NCBI GenBank assembly: GCA_001606155.1
Contig: LODT01000003.1
Span: 1 to 26,265, forward strand
Direction of reading: 5' to 3'
Source of the DNA: Tieghemostelium lacteum
Taxonomy: Eukaryota > Evosea > Eumycetozoa > Dictyosteliales > Raperosteliaceae
DNA: 26,265 nt
Below are positions 1,426 to 20,329 of the stretch, in pieces. Every line of letters begins with the position of its first letter. Position 1 is the stretch's first letter. The notes under the pieces are model-generated. The model was not told the DNA's origin. It did no database searches and worked only from the letters and a program-made list of their open reading frames with translations. The position numbers were made by a program, and so were the translations under genes.

Positions 1426-3189
1426 TCAAAAAAAAAATTTTATTTTATTTTCGCGGTTGTCAATTCTAACACCTTGAGAAATTAGATATCGAATTGAATC
1501 ATCACTGAGAAAATCAGGATCTCCAGAAATTTTGATAATTTTGATTTTACTGAGATATTGTTGAATAATTTCTTGTGAAACTGCTTGACTGTCATCTTGA
1601 AATTTTGGTGTTTTTTTGGGATACTGTTCATCACAGTCTAAGTAATGATACTTATCAAATTTGATAACTTCAAGAGTTTCAATGTTTGAGAGGTATTGAA
1701 ATGAATTGTGAGGGAATTTATAATTAGAGATTGTCAAATGTTTGACATGTTGAAGTTGTTTGTATCCTTCACTTGTGATCAATGGACAGTTGATAATTGA
1801 TACTTCTTTGGCATTCCAAAGATATTTCATTGCATTGTCATCAATTTTCGAACAAGTTCTCAATTCAATTCTTTCAATTCCATCAAGAAATGATATTCCT
1901 TTGGAGGTGATATTATGGTTTATGAATATCTTAATTGATCTTGTTCCAATGAGATATTGAAGAGTTTCATCATCAATATTTGTGTCATAAATTGTGAGAT
2001 GTTCGAGTGGTCCAATATTTGGATTTCTGTTTGAGAAAATATTGGTGATGAGTTTTGATGTTGACAGGAACCGTCTATCTGGGTTTATATCAAATACTTG
2101 AAGATTAGAAAAATCTGAAAGGTAATTTTCCTCTGCGAAATATCCTTTGATATAAAGATGAGTGATGAATCGTTTTCCTGCTGGTGGAAGTTGATCAATT
2201 TGGTTGTATGAGTGCACAATTACTCTGAAATATTGTAAATTGGAAAATGAATCATATGATTGACAATCTTCAAAAATATCCAAACTTAATGATTTAAGTT
2301 TTCCACCTCTACATAATCTTTCAATATTTTCAGTTTCTATATTTCTGCATCTTTTAATTTTAAGTTCTTCCAATTGTGTGAATTCTGGAATTGATTTGCC
2401 AGTAACTGAATAATGTAGAATTACTCTTAACCAAAGTACTTTGACAGTGTCTTTAAAATGAATGAGTCCTTCATCTGTGATATAGCTTCCCCTTAAATCT
2501 AGTTTAAGAATTTCAATTCCACATTCAGAACCTTCAGCTAAATGTTTTAACATTTCATCATCTAGTTTAAACCTATTATGCCTTTCTATATTGATCTCTT
2601 TCAGATTTGAGAATATTTTGGTTCTGATGAATTTTTCAATACATTCAGGTTCCTTGTATTCAAAGTATTCCATGAGAGTTACTCCATTGGTGATTGAAGC
2701 GATATTGTGAGTTTCAATGTTGAAACCATCATCTGATGTCACACATGACCATTGAGGTGAGTTGTTGAATTTTATCAATGGTTTTGTGTTACAGATTATA
2801 CCTTTTGAAAACATTTTATCAATGATTAATCGATTTTTGATGATATTCGATAAATGATTTATTGTGTTGGAATGTTGAATTTTTGATTTGTGAATCACGA
2901 GAATATCAACACTTTCAATCAAATTTAATGATTCATCTGTTGGTTGGTAAAGTGTCACTTTATGAAATCTATTGATATATTTGAGAATTGGTATCAATAA
3001 TTTTGATTCAGGATGACTGAAATCAAGAGTGAAATCAAGAATATCCAATGATCTTGTGATTAATTGTTTGTTGTTTGTTGATGTCAACATTAATCTGAAT
3101 AGATCTGGAATTGAATTGATATTCCTCAATATTTCATTTCTTATTATTTTGTTGTTGAATGATTCTTGAAATTTTACATCATTATTCAT
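1426..3189 (-). CDS. F-box-like/LRR protein, family 1 copy A
   Basis: A single-exon gene of 587 residues with its ATG at 3187-3189. Residues about 11-40 (around NNKIIRNEILRNINSI and DLFRLML) have the spacing of an F-box-like helix bundle. From about residue 190 to the end come irregular leucine-rich repeats of the RNI/AMN1 type, for example LEHLTIYDTNIDDETLQYL and VSIINCPLITSEGYKQL. If the F-box reading is right, the protein would be an SCF ubiquitin-ligase adaptor whose LRRs choose the target; this is inferred from architecture only. It is the inverted partner of the copy at 4403-6193. It shares the upstream block TGATCCAATGAGATAC with the copy at 18182. Its last residues (RENKIKFFF) and 3' flank differ from both other copies, so its 3' end was replaced or lies at the duplication border. 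Confidence 0.8.
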   Translation of the reverse strand: MNNDVKFQESFNNKIIRNEILRNINSIPDLFRLMLTSTNNKQLITRSLDILDFTLDFSHPESKLLIPILKYINRFHKVTLYQPTDESLNLIESVDILVIHKSKIQHSNTINHLSNIIKNRLIIDKMFSKGIICNTKPLIKFNNSPQWSCVTSDDGFNIETHNIASITNGVTLMEYFEYKEPECIEKFIRTKIFSNLKEINIERHNRFKLDDEMLKHLAEGSECGIEILKLDLRGSYITDEGLIHFKDTVKVLWLRVILHYSVTGKSIPEFTQLEELKIKRCRNIETENIERLCRGGKLKSLSLDIFEDCQSYDSFSNLQYFRVIVHSYNQIDQLPPAGKRFITHLYIKGYFAEENYLSDFSNLQVFDINPDRRFLSTSKLITNIFSNRNPNIGPLEHLTIYDTNIDDETLQYLIGTRSIKIFINHNITSKGISFLDGIERIELRTCSKIDDNAMKYLWNAKEVSIINCPLITSEGYKQLQHVKHLTISNYKFPHNSFQYLSNIETLEVIKFDKYHYLDCDEQYPKKTPKFQDDSQAVSQEIIQQYLSKIKIIKISGDPDFLSDDSIRYLISQGVRIDNRENKIKFFF

Positions 3190-4402
3190 TGTATCTCATT
3201 GGATCACACAAAAATACCACTGTAATTTTTTTTTTTTTTAATTTTCATTTCAAACAAATACAGTATACTATAAGTTGAAATATTAAAATGGAACCTGAAG
3301 TACCAAATCAGTTCTTCTTCACAAAATAGTAAAAAAAAGCTACTCTAAAAGTATTTACAATGAAGATTGACAATGATGCTGGAGTGTTACTGTTGGCACA
3401 GCTATCAATATCACACCAACGATGACTAATACCAGAAGACTTATGATTACAAAGATTTAAAATTAATTGAAATTTTAAATCATATTCAAGTGTTCAAAAG
3501 AAGTTGGACCATTTCATAAATACTTCAGTTCAGTTGTTGGTCCTAATTGTAGTGGTATATCAAATGTCATTGAGGATATGCTTTTTATAATTGGTTTCAA
3601 TTCTAAACAAATTAAACAGATTAAACTTGGTGATCTAGTTCACAAATCTCAAGATAAAAAGAATCTTACAAATTCACAAGTTTTCAAGAATTCATAAGTG
3701 TATGGACAAGGAGAATGATATAGTTGGTATTAATATGGGAATTTATAGCCAGTTGAGATTATAGAGTTCAGGATTTGTGGTTTCTAGATATATAACAAAG
3801 AAATTTAAAAAGGATGGAAGTTTAATGAAAAGTTGTAGAGGCTATTGATCGTACAGGAAAAGATATTGAAGATAGTAATAAAAGAAAACGTAAACTGAAT
3901 AGGATAAAGATTGTAGAGAAACAAAAGGATGTATTGGCTGAAGTCATAAATATTAATAAACCCAAGGTCAGTGTCAGAATGATATAAAGAGATGAGAAAA
4001 AGAGTTCCTAGTGATGCTAAAGAAATTGGTGGATGAAGAGAAGCAGCTAGAGACCATGTTGAGTTCACTTAAAGGTGAAGTTCAACAAGTTCAACAACAA
4101 ATGGAGACTAAAGAAATCACAGAAGTAAATCCATGGACAATTTAAACCCCAAAGAGAAAGATCAGAGAAATATATAGGTAGACAGTAATGTTGTAGAAAC
4201 AATAAAGCCACCATTATTAATAGAAATTGATTCAAATACCTCAAAACAGTGTTAATACGCAACAATATTTTAATTTATTTATATTGTTTTTAAATTGATG
4301 TTAGTTTAAATTTAAGTCTTTGAACTTTAATTTCTATTGTATATGAAAATGTGCAATCAACATCATTGATAATTTTTTTTTTAAACGATATTTTATGATA
4401 CA
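3190..4402. other. Spacer between divergent LRR genes
   Basis: The spacer holds the upstream regions of copies A (3190 to about 3300, with a long T run) and B (about 4260-4402, ending in a dT run before the ATG). Between them is the SMC4 relic described separately. Nothing else intact is visible. A 13-codon frame starting MEPEVPNQFF at about 3288 ends at once and has no identified meaning. Confidence 0.6.
3437..4145 (+). pseudogene. smc4 (pseudogene): Decayed fragment of condensin subunit gene SMC4
   Basis: Plus-strand pieces, read in order, follow the N-terminal half of SMC4. At 3437 is RLMITKI, then NFKSYSS. At 3500-3694 comes VGPFHKYFSSVVGPN, with a Walker A loop reading GPNCSGISN where the family has GPNGSGKSN, followed by NVIEDMLF and KLGDLVHKS. 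At about 3755-3815 is FVVSRY. At 3835-3984 is KLNRIKIVEKQKDVL, matching the coiled-coil start (family: KLNRVKxVEKEKDAL). At 4014-4142 is coiled coil ending in NPW. The pieces lie in different frames separated by stops, and long family segments are missing, so this is an old dead copy with lost introns or deletions. SMC4 is the condensin ATPase arm; a working copy should exist elsewhere. The identification rests on recalled family motifs. Confidence 0.85.
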
Positions 4403-6193
4403 ATGAATAATGATGTAAAATTTCAAAAATCATTCAACAACAAAATAATAAGAAATGAAATATTGAGGAATATCAATTCGATTCAAGATCTGTTCAGATT
4501 AATGTTGACATCAACAAACAACAAACAATTAATCACAAGATCATTGGATAACCTTGATTTCACTCTTGATTTCAGTCATCCTGAATCAAAATTATTGATA
4601 CCAATTCTCAAATATATCAATAGATTTCATAAATTGACACTTTACCAACCAACAGATGAATCATTAAATTTGATTGAAAATGTTGATATTCTCGAGATTC
4701 ACAGATCAAAAATTCAACATGGTACTACAATAAATCATTTATCGAATATCATCAGAAATCGATTAATCATTGATAAAATGTTTTCAAAAGGTATAATCTG
4801 TAACACAAAACCATTGATAAAATTCAACAACTCACCTCAATGGTCATGTGTGACATTAGATGATGGTTTCAACATTGAAACTCACAATATCACTTCACTC
4901 ACCAATAGAATAACTCTCATAGAATCCCTTAAATACAAGGCATCTAAACGTATTGATAAATTCATCAGAACCAAAATATTCTCAAATCTGAAAGAGATCC
5001 ATTTAAGATGGCAAGAAAAGTTTTATGAAGATATAGGGTTTAAACTAGATGATGAAATGTTAAAACATTTAGCTGAAGGTTCTGAATGTGGAATTGAAAT
5101 TCTTAAACTATCTAGTTGGAGAAAGAATATCACAGATGAAGGACTCATTCATTTTAAAGACACTCTCAAAGTACTTTGGTTAAAATATATGTACTATGAT
5201 AGGGTTATTGGCAAATCAATTTCAGAATTCACACAATTGGAAGAACTTAAACTTAAAAGATGCGGTCCTATACTATCTGGAAAAATTGAAAGATTATTAA
5301 GAGGTGGAAAACTTAAATCATTAAGTTTGGATAATGATGATGTGTGTCTAGAATATGATTCATTATCCAATTTACAATATTTCAGAGTAATTGCGCACTC
5401 ATACAACGAAACAGGACTTACACCAGAAGGAAAACGATTCATCACTCATTATTATATCAATAAAATGGTAGTAGGGGAAGATTTCTTTTCAGATTTTTCT
5501 AATCTTCAAGTATTTGATATAAACCCAGATGAACGTCGATCTTGGTGCCTGTTAACATCAAAATTCATCACCAATATTTTCTCAAACAGAAATCCAAATA
5601 TTGGACCACTCGAACATCTCACAATTTTTAACTCAAATATTGATGATGAAACTCTTCAATATCTCATTGGAACAAGATCAATTAAGATATTCATAAACCA
5701 CAATATCACCTCCAAAGGAATATCATTTCTTGATGGAATTGAAAGAATTGAATTGAGAACTTGTTCGAAAATTGATGATAATGCAATGAAATATCTTTGG
5801 AATGCCAAAGCAGTATCAATTATCAACTGTCCATTGATCACAAGTGAAGGATACAAACAACTTCAACATGTCAAACATTTGACAATCTCTAATTATAAAT
5901 TCCCTCACAATTCATTTCAATACCTCTCAAATATTGAAACTCTTGAAGTTATCAAATTTGAAAAGTATTATGGCTTAGACTGTGATGAACAGTATCCCAA
6001 AATAACACCAAAATTTCAAGATGACAATCAAGCAGTTTCACAAGAAATTATTCAACAATATCTCAGTAAAATCAAAATTATCAAAATTTCTGAAGATCCT
6101 GATTTTCTCAGTGATAATTCAATTCGATATCTAATTTCTCAAGGTGTTAGAATTGACAAACACAAAACTAAAGAATACATTTTTTATAAATAA
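4403..6193 (+). CDS. F-box-like/LRR protein, family 1 copy B
   Basis: A single exon of 596 residues from the ATG at 4403 to the TAA at 6191-6193, with an AATAAA poly(A) signal at 6193-6198 touching the stop. It has the same architecture as copy A: an F-box-like segment at about residues 11-40 and irregular LRRs from about 190 on. Compared with A it carries in-frame insertions, for example about nine residues near 200 (RWQEKFYEDIG) and a few near 390. It runs divergently from A. Its end (DKHKTKEYIFYK) differs from copy C because of a one-base length difference in otherwise nearly identical DNA. The 3' flank TATTATCAACATTTCTCATG is shared with copy C. Target and function are unknown; an SCF-adaptor role is inferred. 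Confidence 0.82.
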   Translation: MNNDVKFQKSFNNKIIRNEILRNINSIQDLFRLMLTSTNNKQLITRSLDNLDFTLDFSHPESKLLIPILKYINRFHKLTLYQPTDESLNLIENVDILEIHRSKIQHGTTINHLSNIIRNRLIIDKMFSKGIICNTKPLIKFNNSPQWSCVTLDDGFNIETHNITSLTNRITLIESLKYKASKRIDKFIRTKIFSNLKEIHLRWQEKFYEDIGFKLDDEMLKHLAEGSECGIEILKLSSWRKNITDEGLIHFKDTLKVLWLKYMYYDRVIGKSISEFTQLEELKLKRCGPILSGKIERLLRGGKLKSLSLDNDDVCLEYDSLSNLQYFRVIAHSYNETGLTPEGKRFITHYYINKMVVGEDFFSDFSNLQVFDINPDERRSWCLLTSKFITNIFSNRNPNIGPLEHLTIFNSNIDDETLQYLIGTRSIKIFINHNITSKGISFLDGIERIELRTCSKIDDNAMKYLWNAKAVSIINCPLITSEGYKQLQHVKHLTISNYKFPHNSFQYLSNIETLEVIKFEKYYGLDCDEQYPKITPKFQDDNQAVSQEIIQQYLSKIKIIKISEDPDFLSDNSIRYLISQGVRIDKHKTKEYIFYK

Positions 6194-9050: not shown

Positions 9051-9467
9051 CTTTTTTTTTTGTGATCTATCTGTATATTCGAAAAAAAACAACAATGATT
9101 TCAGAAATAAAAAAAAAAAAAATCAAAAAAAAAATTAAATATATGAACTTTCATTTAATTATAAGAAATTAATATATATAAATCAGTATGGTATTAATTT
9201 TCTATAGAAAAAATCAATCTTAGATCATTTAACATAATAATTTTTAAAAAATCTTCTTTTATTCTTTTAAATTCACCCTTGAAATATTTTGATAAAAAGG
9301 GTGTGGGTATTCTTTCATTCAAATTATTTTGGGGAATATATAATTAATTAGATATGATAAAAATACTTTATATTATGTATAATTAAATTAATTAACTTTG
9401 TTTTTTAATTTTTTAAATTAAAATTCTTTTGCTACACTTTCGTTTTTGCATAAAGTGCAACCGCGCA
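9051..9467. promoter_or_regulatory. Divergent promoter region with a G-rich inverted repeat
   Basis: The 417 bp between two divergent gene starts is very AT-rich, with dA/dT runs next to the enoyl reductase gene. A GC-bearing island stands out: CACCCTT at 9274-9280 and its inverse AAGGGTG at 9297-9303, the latter extending to GGGTGTGGGTATTC. GGGTGTGGG resembles the G-box bound by the dictyostelid factor GBF, but the site is untested. It could serve either gene. Confidence 0.35.
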
Positions 9468-12400
9468 ATGTCTAGTAGGAAAACCAATAATAAAAATGTA
9501 CATAAAGAGAAAACCAAAAATACAGAGGATACTGAGAACCAAAATGATAGTTATAAATATAGAAAGCGTTCTGAACACAGTGTAACTAAAAGTAGAGTAA
9601 AGGAACAGAAAAAGAAAGAAGATGCTAGTAATGAAGAGTTATTGAATTCTATCAATGATATTCCTTCAAAACCTCCAGTAAAGTCACATAAAAGGAATAA
9701 AAAGGTTAAAGAGTTATTAGAGAAACAAAAAAAACAGGTGAATCCTACAGTAAAGAAATCTGTAACTTTTAATATCCCATCACCAGAGAAAGTTGTTGAT
9801 GATGAACACTTTCCTTTACATTTGAATGTTGTTATAGATGAATTAAATATAGAACCTGTAGTTTTTGACAATGGTAGTAAGAATAGTAAAAATAAGAAGA
9901 TTCCTAATACAGAAACAACAACAAGAACAACCACAACCACAACCACAAAAGAAGTAACACCACCACAAATATCACCACAAATACCGTCACCACCACACAC
10001 ATCATTTACAGGGTTTGAATCTAATGTTCAATTAAAGCGACACAGAGTATATGAAATTGCAAAAGCAAAATTAAAGGAAATTCAACAACAAGAAAGGCAA
10101 TCTGCAAATATAGAAATTATTTATGCGAATCACGAAAAATCAATTCAAGGGAAATTACATGAGGATTCATTAGAAAGATTATTAGTTTATTTTCCTCATA
10201 ATGAGCCAATATCTGAAACTACAAATCAGGATTCAATTAAAACTACACAACAATTATTCTTTAATGAAAACCAATTCACTGTAAAGGATAAAGAGAATTG
10301 TTTTCCACCTTGGATTTATAGTCATTCTTTTTCAAATATATTTGGATCCATACCAAACCATAACCCATTGGTATCAGCTAGTCACGGGTACCAATTTCTC
10401 CTTAAAGAGATTGAGGTTCTAGGTGACCATCAATCTGATAAACTTCAATTGAAATACTACTATTTCAGTAAGAATGCTAAATTACACTTTGATAAAATGG
10501 TGGTGTTTCCTAAAGAAAAGAGTAATGCTAATAATACAAGTACTATGAAATTCGATGAGGAGTTACTGACGGAACTTGGACTGACGAATAGTGAACTCTT
10601 AGATATCATTCAACAAGAGAATATAGATATAGAAACTGATGATAGTTTGCATTTTGAAGAGTGTCTAGGTGGTACTAGAATGGTATATGATAGATTTGGT
10701 ACTGTTTCTTTACTGATATTTGCCAATGGACCTTGTATGAATGTTTTATCAATATTTGATCTGTCAAATAAATTTCCAACAGATTTTAGATACAAAAACT
10801 ATCCTGGTAACTACTATTGTCTGAACCAATCCATTTTAAATATTTCAATTCATATTATAAACAATTGTATGTATATTTCATCAAACCAAATTTACAACTA
10901 CTCATGGTTATTAATTTATTTAATAAATAATAGGTACAAAATTAATTATTGTAAAAACAATGTATTCATGTCACTATTTCCATTTAAAGATTAATCAGCA
11001 AAATGTAACTGATTCCTCGAACACCAATTCAAAACCAAATATAGAATTGGTATACCTAAATTATATATCATTCAATGAAATGGTTTCAGATGTATTGATT
11101 ACCAATAACAAAACCAATGAATCAATGATACTATTACAAGATGGTTCAGTTCACTCTTTTATATTTGATGACTATATTTATCATGTTGAAAGATTTTCAA
11201 ATTTTCAACTTGATAGAGAAAGATCAACTTTAGTAATACCAAAAATACTCAAACAAAATCCAGAGAATAATAATAGTAAAAAAAAGAATAATAATAGTAA
11301 TAATACAAGTAAAAATCAGTGGTTACAATTTCAGATTCAATCCACTGATAAACATATATTTATAGCTAATAGAGAGGAGGTTGTGATCTATGATCTTGGA
11401 TCATTTAATGATAATAATTTAGAACGACAATCTATAAAATATAGGACATTTTTTAAGACATTAGAGCAATATGGTTCTATAAATTCATTAAAAATGTCAG
11501 TAGAACATCCTTTTCATTTATTTATCAGTACAGAACAATACCTATTTCTATATGATACTAGGTATTCTCTGAATCCATTAATTCAATGGAGATATCCAAG
11601 TGTACAGAAATCAGTAATCATTCAGCTTCTAGATAGGGATTTCATAGGAGACGATATTATCCTTGTAAAGGTTCAAAATAATATCAGTGGTGAATTGACA
11701 ATATTTCAATACAAGTTCGAAAGAGGTCCAATTCCTATGTCAATACCATATATACCACTTCTCAATGACCACATGGAGATTCGAAAAGAGTATTTCGAAG
11801 ATCCATTTAGCTTTTTAATGAATGGTGTCACTAAAGATAATATATCTCTACATGTAGTACCAAGTTTCAACCTATTTCAGCCTATTCCAACATTTGGTGA
11901 GAAATCACTGAATTTGAATTACAATTTCACATCGGATCCATTTGTTTCCAAACCACTTATTGGAAGTGCTTTGGTGCCTGTGAAAATGGGTGACACACAC
12001 ATTGGAATGACAATACTACAAATGAATCTGTTTGGTGATATAACAGCTACTAATTATACTATAATTGATAGTCAGAACAATCTAAATGAGAATAGGGGTA
12101 GCTTAATACTCAAAAAACCAATGGAAATACCAAAAGGTTTAACAATACCACATCACCATGATTTCCAACGAACTTATCAAGATATTCTCATGTTATCAGT
12201 TATAATACAAAAAAGAAATTTAAAAGATTATTTTAAACCAAAGAAAGTAGTAAAAAATGAGAATTGTTATCCAATACCTGACAGGGTACAATTACTGAAC
12301 CATGACAATTCTCTATGGCAGAACCATAATTTCGATGAAACACTAAATTTAACAGATAATTTATTAATCTATCTCGAAAGTGGTCCAAAGACAGCAAATG

Positions 12401-13260
12401 ACATTCTCATGACATTCTCAGGATACTATACTAAAAAGGAAATTATGGATATATTGTCAACAGCTACTGAACCTGTACTAGAGACTCTTACAAATGGTTC
12501 TCTACCTCAATCTATACATAAGACTTTTGTTCACTCTCAATTCAATATCTTCAATATCAAGCCTGTTCCTAGAATTCTACATGACGAATTCATTAGGAAT
12601 AATTCGACGTTATATCACTTGAGTCCATTTTTCTCAGCCAGAGAGTACCTGGAGACTAACCAAATCACCTCCAAAGTATTTCTAAAGAATAAAATCATAT
12701 ATGGTAAAAAACCACAATCCTCTGAAAGCAATGAGGAAACTGAAGAAGATGAAGAGAGTGAAGAAGAAGTTAGAAATCAATCTAGAACTACTATGTCATT
12801 GGACAGCGAAGGAAATATAGTAAGGACCAAGAAAAAGAAAGCTACAAAAAAGAAACCAAAACCAAAGAAAACGATTAGACCTGAAATTGATGTTGATGGT
12901 TGGAGAAAAGAATGGTTAGAAGGATTTGCTGAGATTAATCCAAGATCTAATGATTCCTTGACTAGACCATCTATAAATCTACCAAAAATCACAAAAAGAA
13001 AACTTGATAATCCAATATCAAGTACTCTGGATGTTAATTATCATGACAGTGTGCAATCTCAGAGTACTTATAACTTTGGTTTAGATAACAACAATTCAAG
13101 AGATCAATATAAGAAATCAAAAACCTCTCATATCTCTTATTCTCAACCAGACCTAACTTCTTACTCACAACCTTTACCAGTGTACTCAACCAATGGTAGT
13201 TTTCCATCTCTTATTAATAGACAACAAACTACTACCACAACAACATCATCATCTAGTCAA

Positions 13261-13313
<53 letters not shown>

Positions 13314-13497
13314 AGTATGGGAGAATGATGATGATAATCATTTTTCAATCCCAATTCAAGAGAGTCAAGATTCATCATTCCAATATTCACAACCTGCTGC
13401 ATCTTCTAATACTATTAGCAATCCTTCAAATTATAATTTCTCATTTAGTAATTTTTCAACATCTAATTTCCTTTCCTCGATGAATATGAACCCATAA
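9468..13497 (+). CDS. Large nuclear-type protein, possible Pol I factor TAF1C/Rrn6-like (two exons)
   Basis: Exon 1 is 9468-10866, the intron 10867-10933 (67 bp, GTATGT...ATAG), and exon 2 10934-13497; the predicted length is 1320 residues. I use the ATG at 9468 (MSSRKTNN); the frame is open earlier but without an ATG. Residues 1 to about 230 are charged, Thr-rich and probably disordered. About 300-900 hold beta-rich blocks like a WD40-type propeller, for example HPFHLFISTEQYLFLYDTRY near 659, which recalls the SL1 subunit TAF1C/yeast Rrn6. After a helical part (GPKTANDILMTFSGYYTKKE) come an acidic stretch, a Lys-rich patch near 1095-1115 (KKKKATKKKPKPKK), and a Ser/Asn-rich tail with poly-Asn at about 1243-1260. 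The Pol I role is tentative; a generic propeller protein is the alternative. Confidence 0.7.
13261..13311 (+). repeat. (AAT)n microsatellite coding for poly-asparagine
   Basis: About 17 uninterrupted AAT units lie inside exon 2 of the preceding gene, in frame as Asn codons. Such tracts are a hallmark of dictyostelid proteins and are prone to length change. Confidence 0.95.
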
Positions 13498-13803
13498 ACT
13501 TATTTATTTATATGATTTATCAATAATCAAATTTGAGGTTTAAATTATAAATTAAGTTTTTTTAAATAGGATATGAAAGATTCTATTGGTTGGACATTTG
13601 GTTGATCATATTTAAAGTCAATTCTAGATTAACAATTAAAGTAGTAATCGATTTTAAGTTTTTTTGTTGTTTGGCAAATAAAATAAAAAACAATCATTTA
13701 TTATCTAAAAATTTTAATAATAATAATATAATAATTAAATCTGTGTTTATAGAGGCTTTAAAAAACACTTATAAGGATGATTTTTATTTTAAATTTCCAA
13801 TAA
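13498..13803. other. Intergenic stretch with a family-2 gene fragment
   Basis: This stretch lies between the convergent ends of the TAF1C-like gene and the first family-2 LRR gene. It holds the family-2 relic at 13560-13680 on the minus strand. The rest (13680-13803) is AT-rich with no readable content. Confidence 0.55.
13560..13680 (-). pseudogene. C-terminal fragment of a third family-2 LRR gene
   Basis: Read on the minus strand, 13561-13625 gives RIDFKYDQPNVQP then IESFISYLK. This aligns with the tail of the neighbouring family-2 gene (KMDFQNDQPNEKP then KSLISYIYN). Upstream (13626-13680) a weaker match continues but is interrupted by a stop. No other part of the gene remains. It lies in the same orientation as the two intact copies next to it, so it looks like the eroded end of a longer tandem array. 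Confidence 0.65.
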
Positions 13804-15291
13804 TTATTTATTAAATATATTATAAATATATGAAATTAAAGATTTTGGTTTTTCATTTGGTTGATCATTTTGAAAGTCCATTTTAGTATAGAGATAAGTT
13901 GATGGAGTTACAAAATCAAAAATTTTAAATGGAGGTGATGGGGTAACCAACTGAAGGTTTTTGGTGTGAGTTTTAAATTTAATTTTAATGAAATCTAGAG
14001 TTTCTGATTGATGTAGAGAACTTAAGATTTTAGTCATTTTTAAAGAAAAAGATAAAATAAAGATAAAATTATTTTTATCAATATCTTTTTCATAAAGAAA
14101 TAAAGATAGGTATACAAGTGAAGGTAATAATGAGATTGATTTAGATAATTCCTTACTCTCACCTATATTTAAAGGTCTTAACGGAAGATCTAAATGTAAT
14201 TTAACCAATTGTTGATGTCTCTCTAAGAATGAGTTAAATAGAGATAAATCCAGATCGTTCTCTGAATATATTCTAAGATCTCTGAGTGATGGGAAATTCT
14301 TCAAAAATATCAAATTTCTTAATGAATCTTTAAGGAATGATCGAATTTTTAAATGAACGATATAATGAAAAATCTGATCATGTATCAAATTATCTTGGGG
14401 ATATATCACTGAAAAAACTTGAATATCCAAATGATTTAAATGAGATTTTTCATTTAATACTTCAAAGAGTGAATATAATAGATTTGCTTCGTAAAATGTT
14501 AATTGAAGCTTTTCAATTTGTTTTAATTGAACCCAGTTTTCAAGAAGGTTTTGGACACGATTAACTGTCAATGATTTCAAATGGTTAAAGTGATTGTTAG
14601 CGAATTGAGGGATATATAAATAAGGAAAGATTTTCAATTTTACTAGATTTGGAGCATGATAATTATTCGAAAATTTAATTAACTCAGTATCCATATCTGT
14701 CTCCAACTTTCTGATTTTAATTGATCTGAGAGTGTACTGAAAGTGTTGAAGAAATATCATTATAAATCTATTTGAATTGGTGTGATCGATATATATATCA
14801 ATGTGTTCTAATTGAGGTGGTATCAAATCAATTGAATTTATCCATTTATTCATGTTTACTATGTCATTGGTGTAGAATAAACTTAGTTTAAGTTTTTTCA
14901 GTGATGGGAAACAGTTAAGAAACATTGGTAAACTCACTATATAATCTTCTTTATCATACCAAATGAGATTCAATTTATGTACATTTGGGAATAGATATCT
15001 ACATCTCTTTAATTGATAATCTCCTAAATTAAAAGATGATTTTCTTGATGGTATTTCTGCAATAACTTTTGTTATTCTTCTATTTTTATATTTATCACTA
15101 TTGAAATAACCTTCAACAGTATCATCTAAATTTATAAATGATTCTGATAATCTCTGAAATTCTGATTTAAAATGTTTATAAATAACTGAATTGATCAATG
15201 ATAATGATAATTTATATCTATTTGGTAACCAATTATTATTTAATATATAATCTACAATATGAAATAAAACTATATTTGGTAGTATTGCCAT
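13804..15291 (-). CDS. F-box-like/LRR protein, family 2 copy 1
   Basis: A single exon of 495 residues with its ATG at 15289-15291. The N-terminus (MAILPNIVLFHIVDYILNNN, then KLSLSLINSVIYKHF) has the hydrophobic pattern of an F-box-like domain as seen in many dictyostelid multigene families. Residues about 95 to 450 are leucine-rich repeats, for example FPNVHKLNLIW, FPSLKKLKLSLF, LEHIDIYI and LPSLVYLSLFLY. The paralogue at 15443-16933 is nearly identical over the first ~135 residues and increasingly different after that. The ~90 bp upstream is also duplicated. Function is unknown; a substrate-binding adaptor of an SCF ubiquitin ligase is a reasonable inference from the layout. The short plus-strand frame at 14337-14564 is a shadow. 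Confidence 0.8.
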   Translation of the reverse strand: MAILPNIVLFHIVDYILNNNWLPNRYKLSLSLINSVIYKHFKSEFQRLSESFINLDDTVEGYFNSDKYKNRRITKVIAEIPSRKSSFNLGDYQLKRCRYLFPNVHKLNLIWYDKEDYIVSLPMFLNCFPSLKKLKLSLFYTNDIVNMNKWINSIDLIPPQLEHIDIYIDHTNSNRFIMIFLQHFQYTLRSIKIRKLETDMDTELIKFSNNYHAPNLVKLKIFPYLYIPQFANNHFNHLKSLTVNRVQNLLENWVQLKQIEKLQLTFYEANLLYSLFEVLNEKSHLNHLDIQVFSVIYPQDNLIHDQIFHYIVHLKIRSFLKDSLRNLIFLKNFPSLRDLRIYSENDLDLSLFNSFLERHQQLVKLHLDLPLRPLNIGESKELSKSISLLPSLVYLSLFLYEKDIDKNNFIFILSFSLKMTKILSSLHQSETLDFIKIKFKTHTKNLQLVTPSPPFKIFDFVTPSTYLYTKMDFQNDQPNEKPKSLISYIYNIFNK

Positions 15292-15385
15292 TATTAATTA
15301 AATATTTGAAAGAAATTAAATTTTTATTAAATGAAATAAGTGGGGTACCACTCTCATTATTGAAAAAATATAGTTAAAGAAAAAA
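15292..15385 (-). promoter_or_regulatory. Duplicated upstream element of family-2 copy 1
   Basis: About 90 bp directly upstream of copy 1 match 16934-17031 upstream of copy 2, including a GC-bearing core AGTGGGGTACCACTCTCA. The core contains GTGG-GGTA-CCAC, a short dyad around a GGTACC palindrome, inside otherwise A/T-only DNA. It is a likely shared promoter element or protein-binding site. Confidence 0.45.
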
Positions 15386-15442: not shown

Positions 15443-16933
15443 TTATATAATTTTATTTTTAAAATTAAATATTTTGTTAAAATAGATAAAGTAAGATGGT
15501 TGGTCATTTTGAAAATCATTTTTTGAAAAATTATAAGTCACTGGATATTGATTTACAATATTAACAATTTTAAATGGAGGTGATGGAAAAACCAAATTAT
15601 GTTCTTTTGTTTGTGTTAAAAAAACAATTTGAATGAAATCTAGTGAATCTGATTGGTGAAGTGATCTTACTATTTTAGTGGTTTTTAATGAGGGTTTTTC
15701 CATAAGACTAACAATGAATGATAAAGATAGGTATTCAAGTGATGGTAAAAATGATAATGATTTAGATAGTTTCTTACTCTCCTCAGTTTTAAATGGCCTA
15801 AGAGGAATTGTTAAATGTATTTTAACCAATTGTTGATGTCTATCTAAGAATGAGTTAAATAGAGATAAATTAATCTCTGAATTTAATTCAAGGTTTCTGA
15901 GTGACGGATAATTCTTCAAAAAGATCAGATCTCTTAATATATTAAATGGAATCGATTCAATTTTAAGAATTTCAATATAATGAATATCATGAGGAATAAT
16001 CTGATCATGTATCAAAATATCTAGAGGATACAATCTGAAAACTATAATATCCAAATGAATTAATTTAGATTTTTCATTTAATATTTCAAAGAGTGAATTT
16101 AATAAATGGAGATCTAGTTGGGAAATTCTTAATTGAAGTTTTTCTATTTGTTTTAATTGAACCCAGTTTTCAAGAAGGTTTTCGACATGCGTGCAATTAA
16201 CCATCAATAACTTCAAATGGTTAAAGTGATTATTAATGAATTGAAGGATAGGTAAACAATGAATTGTTTTCAATTTTACTAGATTTGGAGCATGATAATT
16301 ATTCGAAAAATTAATTAATTCCATATCTATATCGGTATTCAACAATCTGATTTTAATTGATCTGAGAGTGTACTGAAAGTATTGAAGAAATTTCATTATA
16401 AATCTATGTGAATTGTTATGTTCGAAATATATATCAATGTGTTCTAATTGAGGTGGTATCAAATCAATTGAATTTATCCATTTATTCATGTTTACTCTTT
16501 TTTCAATGGTGCAGTAGCATAAATTTAGTTTAAGTTTTTTCAGTGATGGGAAACAGTTAAGAAACATTGGTAAACTCACTATATAATCTTCTTTATCATA
16601 CCAAATGAGATTCAATTTATGCACATTTGGGAATAGATATCTACATCTCTTCAATAGATAATCTCCTCTATTAAATGATGATTTTCTAGATGGTATTTCT
16701 GCAATTACTTTTGTTATTCTTCTATTTTTATATTTATCACTACTGAAATAACCTTCAACAGTATCATCTAATTTTACAAATGATTCTGATAATCTCTGAA
16801 ATTCTGATTTAAAATGTTTATAAATATCTGAATTGATCAATGATAATGATAATTTATATCTAATTGGTAACCAATTATTATTTAATATATAATCTACAAT
16901 ATGAAATAAAACTATATTTGGTAGTATTGCCAT
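15443..16933 (-). CDS. F-box-like/LRR protein, family 2 copy 2
   Basis: A single exon of 496 residues with its ATG at 16931-16933, 151 bp upstream of and in the same direction as copy 1. The F-box-like N-terminus (MAILPNIVLFHIVDYILNNN) is identical to copy 1. The segment to about residue 135 differs by only a handful of residues. The LRR part then diverges, with in-frame gains and losses (for example CYCTIEKRVN against FYTNDIVN near 140, and HVENLL against a shorter form near 245). The tail (PSPPFKIVNIVNQ then FSKNDFQNDQPS) keeps the family pattern but ends differently. It is a recent tandem duplicate. Function is unknown beyond the inferred F-box/LRR adaptor type. Confidence 0.8.
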   Translation of the reverse strand: MAILPNIVLFHIVDYILNNNWLPIRYKLSLSLINSDIYKHFKSEFQRLSESFVKLDDTVEGYFSSDKYKNRRITKVIAEIPSRKSSFNRGDYLLKRCRYLFPNVHKLNLIWYDKEDYIVSLPMFLNCFPSLKKLKLNLCYCTIEKRVNMNKWINSIDLIPPQLEHIDIYFEHNNSHRFIMKFLQYFQYTLRSIKIRLLNTDIDMELINFSNNYHAPNLVKLKTIHCLPILQFINNHFNHLKLLMVNCTHVENLLENWVQLKQIEKLQLRISQLDLHLLNSLFEILNEKSKLIHLDIIVFRLYPLDILIHDQIIPHDIHYIEILKIESIPFNILRDLIFLKNYPSLRNLELNSEINLSLFNSFLDRHQQLVKIHLTIPLRPFKTEESKKLSKSLSFLPSLEYLSLSFIVSLMEKPSLKTTKIVRSLHQSDSLDFIQIVFLTQTKEHNLVFPSPPFKIVNIVNQYPVTYNFSKNDFQNDQPSYFIYFNKIFNFKNKII

Positions 16934-17031
16934 TATTAATTAAATATTTGAAAGAAATTAAATTTTTATTAAATGAAATAAAAGTGGGGGTACCACTCTC
17001 ACTTTTGAAAAAATATAGTTATAGAAAAAAA
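16934..17031 (-). promoter_or_regulatory. Duplicated upstream element of family-2 copy 2
   Basis: This is the partner of 15292-15385. It has the core AAGTGGGGGTACCACTCTCA with one extra G, followed by the same GAAAAAATATAGTTA. Conservation of this non-coding block next to both start codons supports a regulatory role, although recent duplication alone would also explain it. Confidence 0.45.
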
Positions 17032-19987: not shown

Positions 19988-20329
19988 AGCTATTATCAAC
20001 ATTTCTCATGAAACCTCTAATTCACAAAGTCTTTATCTTTGTTTCATTATTAATGATCGATAAACCTTTCTTGATTTCGTCTTCTTCACTTCTTTTGGTC
20101 TTTAATATCCCTGTAAATGATTAACAAGTTTAAATAGTGGTGATGGAAATATCGGAGCATGTAGCTGAAAGATAATATATTTATTCGTATCAAATCAATT
20201 TTTAATATATATTTAATTATATGAAATACAATATTGGGTATGATTATTTTAGAATTAACTTAAAAATAAAAATTAAAGAGTGAGAATCATTTTTTTTTAT
20301 TTGTTTTTATTTGTTACTAAGTTCAAAAA
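19988..20329. other. Spacer with a family-2 tail relic and the acyltransferase upstream region
   Basis: Positions 19988-20011 continue the 3' flank shared with copy B. Positions 20102 to about 20205 hold a minus-strand family-2 fragment. Positions 20206-20329 are AT-rich DNA with dT runs preceding the ATG of the next gene. Confidence 0.5.
20102..20205 (-). pseudogene. Short family-2 LRR C-terminal relic
   Basis: Minus-strand reading gives KIDLIRINILS and, one frame over, FQLHAPIFPSPLFKLVN then a TAA at 20102-20104. The intact copies have LDFIQIVFLTQT and HNLVFPSPPFKIVN at the matching place. The fragment is short and frameshifted, so the match is suggestive rather than firm. Confidence 0.45.

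Follow-up and report, generated by a model that had tools for sequence, protein, structure and literature searches.

Variation among three F-box-like leucine-rich repeat paralogues of Tieghemostelium lacteum is concentrated in β-to-α loops

Results

The stretch of DNA analysed here (the window, 26,265 nucleotides) is AT-rich and apparently eukaryotic, with Asn/Gln runs and an apparent short intron; in its base composition, these runs and the intron it resembles dictyostelid DNA. It carries two families of genes for leucine-rich repeat (LRR) proteins. Family 1 consists of copies A, B and C, whose open reading frames (ORFs) are all uninterrupted, and family 2 consists of copies D and E, which sit between B and C (Table 1). 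Comparison of the two families gave no significant sequence similarity. A and B are arranged head to head, and the distance from B to C is 12 kb. The neighbours are housekeeping genes: a GCFC/G-patch (TFIP11-like) protein, a zinc dehydrogenase, a PD-(D/E)XK nuclease-like protein and an amidohydrolase spread across two ORFs. Two long overlapping ORFs at 9429–13497 lack matches in Pfam (E up to 0.01) and are probably parts of a single gene.

The segment 1426–6193 is an inverted repeat whose ~1.8 kb arms, A and B, are 91% identical; a 1.2 kb spacer (3190–4402) separates them, and their flanks are unrelated. Retroposition was considered as the origin of family 1 and set aside: inspection by eye gave no clear poly(A) at the homology ends, and the intron evidence points neither way. 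We found no relatives of family 1, and hence no outgroup and no additional paralogues, in collections of viral contigs, prokaryote genome contigs and plasmids; eukaryote genomes are few or missing there, and this absence says little. All family-1 comparisons below are of only three sequences, those of A, B and C.

Table 1. Gene copies of the two families and sub-regions of copy B, in window coordinates.
Feature	Position	Strand	Basis
Copy A, 587 aa, F-box-like N-terminus and LRRs	1426..3189	-	ORF and alignment
Copy B, 596 aa, subject of this study	4403..6193	+	ORF, alignment, low-confidence model
B, conserved F-box-like N-terminus, alignment codons 0–85	4403..4657	+	Weak Pfam F-box; ML ω
B, hypervariable middle, codons 85–405, ω about 3.7	4658..5593	+	NG86, ML, simulation
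B, first hypervariable β-to-α loop	5006..5032	+	LRR-phase analysis
B, loops 2–4	5111–5137, 5183–5209, 5255–5281	+	LRR-phase analysis
B, loops 5–8	5330–5356, 5390–5416, 5459–5485, 5522–5548	+	LRR-phase analysis
B, conserved LRR block, codons 405–520	5594..5938	+	NG86, base counts
B, variable C-terminal tail, ω imprecise	5939..6193	+	NG86, ML, base counts
Copy D, family 2, LRR protein, same variable loop phase	13804..15291	-	ORF, loop-phase test
Copy E, family 2	15443..16933	-	ORF; first ~125 codons and ~60–95 bp upstream close to D
Copy C, 601 aa	18182..19987	+	ORF and alignment

The N-terminus of family 1 resembles an F-box. The Pfam F-box model scores 13.8 bits in B and 12.5 bits in C, below the cutoff of 20.5, over residues 18–46; for A, D and E it was not among the matches listed. 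In a low-confidence model of B, the N-terminus folds into helices at residues 4–11, 14–22, 27–34 and 38–50. The remainder has the features of an LRR solenoid, with 19 strand motifs recognized by eye and an alternation of strand and helix in the model; no Pfam LRR model scored above its cutoff. Foldseek paired the model with an LRR F-box protein at E 3.5e-8. For two structure models, both with a mean pLDDT of 57, the first-ranked PDB matches were plant F-box/LRR receptors (D3 for one; COI1 and then TIR1 for the other), which are conserved hormone receptors. TM-scores were low among the 50 matches listed for each (0.20–0.47, query-normalised), many of the matches were other LRR proteins, and the second-ranked match of the family-1 model was a mouse cytoplasmic-lattice chain. 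A sequence search of the PDB returned a single weak match, FBXL2 (E 0.022), and a PDB search with alignments found nothing. Neither FNIP nor TIG families occurred among the Pfam matches listed for A–E at E up to 1. Pfam Abi_alpha (E 0.002 in A and 0.008 in B) was below its cutoff and was treated as a chance match.

Along the family-1 gene, two conserved regions alternate with two variable ones, a conserved region coming first. Base differences (AB/AC/BC) number 7/5/6 per 255 in codons 0–85, 109/126/85 per 909/909/924 in codons 85–405 (the middle), 7/3/6 per 345 in codons 405–520 and 18/32/33 per 249 in codons 520–604 (the tail). Identity among A, B and C is 97–99% in the two conserved regions. 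The boundaries at 85, 405 and 520 were fixed after inspection of the alignment. Three ω (dN/dS) values fit far better than one (2ΔlnL 113, p 3e-25). The first-pass annotation had described near-identical ends, the second comprising the last ~170 residues, around an LRR middle rich in substitutions and in-frame indels. This observation is partly confirmed and needs correction in places. It holds for the F-box-like N-terminus, for codons 405–520 and for the substitutions in the middle, and its count of four B–C differences in ~310 bp is exact at codons 418–521 (4/309). It does not extend over the full last ~170 residues: codons 520–604 are variable, and the C-terminus thus combines a conserved block of ~115 codons with a variable tail behind it. 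As to the indels, all three ORFs stay open across each length difference, but the whole-codon gap lengths are not independent evidence because the codon alignment was protein-guided.

In the middle, the pairwise NG86 ω values are 3.23, 3.30 and 3.52 (Fisher p 1.8e-4, 1.1e-4 and 9.5e-4). The narrower boundaries of the first-pass annotation (100–390) lead to the same outcome (ω 3.10/3.02/3.11; p 3.6e-4/4.3e-4/0.004), and so does removal of codons up to 3 from a gap (ω 3.58, 3.10 and 3.17). Under GY94/F3x4, ω is 0.32–0.33 in the ends, 3.69 in the middle and 2.9–3.3 in the tail. A middle ω of 1 is rejected with an equal scale (p 1.7e-9) and with a free scale (p 3.8e-6). For the middle alone, 2ΔlnL is 21.1, and the maximum among 150 simulations with ω = 1 was 7.6. 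Among middle codons with a single-base change, silent changes number 1/55, 2/70 and 2/58, against an expected share of about 0.20, or 0.23–0.26 with transition bias (one-sided p 2e-5 to 3e-4); in the conserved ends this share is not lowered. The tail has pairwise ω values of 1.53 (AC) and 1.49 (BC), which are not significant, and AB is without silent change there (p 0.03). Over the whole gene, the one-ratio ω is 2.3, which is unusual across an entire protein of ~590 residues. Site models also favour positive selection (M1a vs M2a, p 2e-27; posterior >0.95 at 21/585 codons), and M3 assigns an implausibly high ω to 5% of sites. We do not rely on M2a or M3, because recombination and multi-base changes inflate site models.

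A codon-usage artefact behind the high ω was considered and rejected. The GC3 of family 1 (0.23–0.24) is near the noncoding GC (0.26) and the GC3 of neighbouring genes (0.21–0.25), which gives no hint that selection on codon usage has lowered dS. A middle dN/dS well below 1, which the first-pass annotation had named as evidence against diversification, did not appear when dN/dS was calculated by region, and the conclusion that selection appears to have favoured change in the family-1 middle is supported. It is scarcely credible that the middle is under relaxed constraint or has become pseudogenic. Nothing in family 1 speaks for this; in family 2, relaxed loops would agree with the loop ω of 1.0. 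In family 1 the idea is contradicted, because relaxation cannot yield ω above 1, and the ORFs are uninterrupted and the scaffold residues kept.

The conserved ends, pooled, have NG86 ω values of 0.33, 0.42 and 0.35, and both are under purifying selection. It had been proposed that gene conversion homogenises both ends while the middle escapes. Their identity agrees with this, as does the presence, in the same window, of a family-2 5′ end that is young at silent sites and continues into near-identical upstream DNA. The silent sites of family 1 argue otherwise. Its dS is about 0.045 and is as high in the ends as in the middle (Fisher p 0.79, 0.26 and 0.76); a common neutral scale fits both (p 0.97), and the ends/middle silent ratio is 1.0, with an interval of about 0.35–2.7 (profile likelihood, read from a grid). 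A model with one ω and differing ages is rejected (p 7e-4). The power of these comparisons is limited by a total of 10 purely silent variable codons, 2 of them in the middle. Since silent changes are few, a 2-fold age difference between ends and middle is compatible with the data, and ends more than ~3-fold younger are excluded. With an end ω of 0.33 and equal silent divergence, purifying selection explains the conserved ends; homogenisation by conversion is not supported in family 1 and seems to us very improbable.

To locate the changes, we aligned eight consecutive LRRs on the final residue of the LxxLxL motif, with anchors picked by eye. Family-1 variation falls on the β-to-α loop after the LxxLxL strand in all eight. 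Variable or gapped columns number 46/64 at positions +1 to +8 and 31/131 elsewhere in the same repeats (Fisher p 1.4e-10); at strand positions −5 to 0, 5/48 vary. Circular shifts matched this contrast in 6/195 cases, the identity among them. The low-confidence model places most of the variable loop positions between a strand and a helix. The loop window (+1 to +8 or +9) was picked after inspection of the family-1 alignment, and the test of family 2 with +1 to +8 is an independent check. There, 61/96 columns are variable or gapped in the window and 54/237 elsewhere (p 4e-12), and 1/333 circular shifts matched, namely the identity. The two families, without significant similarity in sequence, vary at the same loop position, which suggests that they have a mode of binding or a selective pressure in common. 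For the family-1 loops alone, the pairwise evidence for ω above 1 is weaker (Fisher p 0.007, 0.052 and 0.15); by maximum likelihood (ML) with a free scale, p is 0.003–0.007, and 0.02 without multi-base codons. As an evolutionary pattern, the diversifying recognition surface proposed in the first-pass annotation is supported: ω is about 3.2–3.7 in the middle and the change is concentrated in LRR loops.

Many loop codons differ by more than one base. Two- or three-base differences occur in 24/65 ungapped loop codons and 3/119 codons elsewhere in the same repeats. By NG86, dS in the loops is about 0.08–0.21; outside the loops, these repeats offer about 77 silent sites, with 0 changes. ML puts the silent scale of the loops at 4.7x that of all other codons 0–520 (p 0.02) and at 3.5x that of the ends (p 0.06); compared with the non-loop codons of the repeats themselves, the increase has no upper bound (p 0.001). 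Without multi-base codons (41 loop codons remaining), the raised scale falls to 1.04. A search within the window revealed no donor cassettes for the loops, and the longest exact loop matches equal those of shuffles (other repeats, 8.12 vs 8.09; rest of the window, 9.96 vs 9.93).

A local mutational process, either multi-nucleotide replacement or templated hypermutation, could target the LRR loops and supply such variation. The excess of multi-base codons, the raised silent scale and the implausible M3 class are what this would leave. The amino-acid excess is nevertheless present in single-base codons alone, loop ω exceeds 1 even with a free scale, the search of the window gave no donor, and multi-base codons are also expected from strong repeated selection on few codons. 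We regard such a process as improbable. A stricter version is highly doubtful. Here the β-to-α loops of one repeat after another would receive new DNA several bases at a time, and the scaffold would stay near-frozen, silent sites included; if true, this would amount to targeted or templated diversification, perhaps in both LRR families of the locus.

Family 2 has a different history at its 5′ end. In codons 0–125, D and E have a dS of 0.07, compared with 0.31 in the remainder (Fisher p 6e-4), and an equal scale across regions is rejected (p 1.3e-4); the boundary at codon 125 was chosen after inspection of the profile. Near-identity of D and E covers the first ~125 codons and extends upstream (15291–15385 and 16933–17030). 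Because this end is near-identical and the remainder has a dS of about 0.3, it is likely a tract of recent conversion or exchange. We searched family 2 for ω above 1 and did not find it: ω is 1.0 in the loops and 0.57 in the middle, where ω = 1 is rejected (p 0.02). Differences in ω among its regions are not significant (p 0.13). There are two further traces of this family. A decayed fragment on the minus strand at 20168–20277, just 3′ of copy C, resembles the family-2 upstream region and 5′ end (alignment score 54, against a maximum of 38 in 50 shuffles). A short direct repeat of the 3′ end of D (13543–13627 and 13802–13886, 76% across 88 columns) may be what is left of another family-2 copy.

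Discussion

The reading we favour, with a fair measure of doubt, is that A, B and C are close paralogues encoding intracellular F-box-like/LRR substrate receptors with diversifying target-contact loops. The N-terminal helices would bind Skp1 within an SCF ubiquitin ligase. The LRR solenoid would offer its β-to-α loops as a target-binding surface, and bound targets would be ubiquitinated. The targets may be fast-changing, for example a selfish element or a protein of a parasite or competitor, and selection would then favour new loop sequences. Several results count against this reading: the F-box scores lie below the Pfam cutoff, the models are of low confidence and match many other LRR proteins at low TM-scores, pairwise evidence from the loops alone is weaker, ω is not above 1 in family 2, and the tail ω does not significantly exceed 1 in two of three pairs. 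In addition, the loops of the middle repeats are where the silent differences are clustered, and amino-acid selection alone does not predict such clustering.

The raised silent scale of the loops speaks for another reading, in which the entire CDS is exchanged among paralogues, which would hold dS down throughout the gene, and selection keeps or restores the loop differences, as in the HNWD genes of Podospora. Family-1 homology ends within 27 bp of the CDS ends, and the 500-bp flanks of the copies align no better than shuffles, which is odd at a dS of about 0.045; there is also region-by-lineage heterogeneity along the gene (p about 0.008–0.009, three sequences). The raised loop scale vanishes, however, without multi-base codons, and exchange would be required at a scale of 30–60 bp. 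Heterogeneity in three sequences fits exchange and lineage-specific selection alike, and unrelated flanks are also expected from gene-sized transposition. We consider such whole-gene concerted evolution rather unlikely. In the sections cited here, HNWD het-d/het-e share repeat-protein recognition, few positively selected surface residues and a homogeneous backbone with family 1, and differ in having WD40 repeats and demonstrated concerted evolution (PMC1805685). They appear to be the closest evolutionary analogue that we found (PMC1805685).

A positively selected F-box/LRR type of receptor is already known in nematodes and plants, judging from the parts of the literature cited. The F-box adapters of both show positive selection in their substrate domains (Thomas 2006 via PMC3984280, PMC12062965), and they share with family 1 a conserved F-box end, a positively selected substrate domain and lineage-specific paralogues. 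The nematode adapters differ in having FTH/FBA2 domains, and LRRs are said to be rare among them in the cited section (PMC3984280); in family 1 the F-box is degenerate and the variation is concentrated in the LRR β-to-α loops. The combination of ω above 1 in the substrate domain and below 1 at the F-box end is found in family 1 and not in family 2. Plant TIR1, COI1 and D3/MAX2 likewise have an F-box followed by an LRR solenoid and contact their ligands through β-α loops; in COI1/TIR1, the cited sections describe loops on the top surface that bind hormone or ligand and degron (PMC4030839, PMC6058352). The PDB searches by sequence found no match to these plant receptors.

Among amoebae, 38 Skp1 interactors of Dictyostelium have been predicted to carry F-box-like sequences, and 24 of them receptor-like domains that are mostly LRRs, according to the cited part of PMC9485057. 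The F-box-like and FNIP-LRR proteins of Dictyostelium resemble family 1 in joining a degenerate F-box to LRR-type receptor domains; the FNIP-LRR proteins differ, FNIP being absent from the Pfam matches listed for A–E. One FNIP-repeat gene, chtB, affects cheating (PMC3559258, cited section). The allorecognition genes tgrB1/tgrC1 are also duplicated recognition genes that diversify fast, but the source, as cited, describes TIG repeats, action between cells and a dN/dS below 1 (PMC12324515). The family-1 ω of 2.3 exceeds that value, the two being different kinds of comparison. Within the collection of papers searched, we found none combining dictyostelid, F-box, leucine-rich repeat and positive selection, and none on the family-1 pattern by title or start of abstract.

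Taken from the sequences, the pattern in A, B and C suggests a fast-diversifying recognition family that acts inside the cell. If this is true, the three genes would belong to an amoeba gene family that serves recognition or defence within the cell. The variable loops would then pinpoint the residues that likely contact the target, and a direct screen for targets would be gained.
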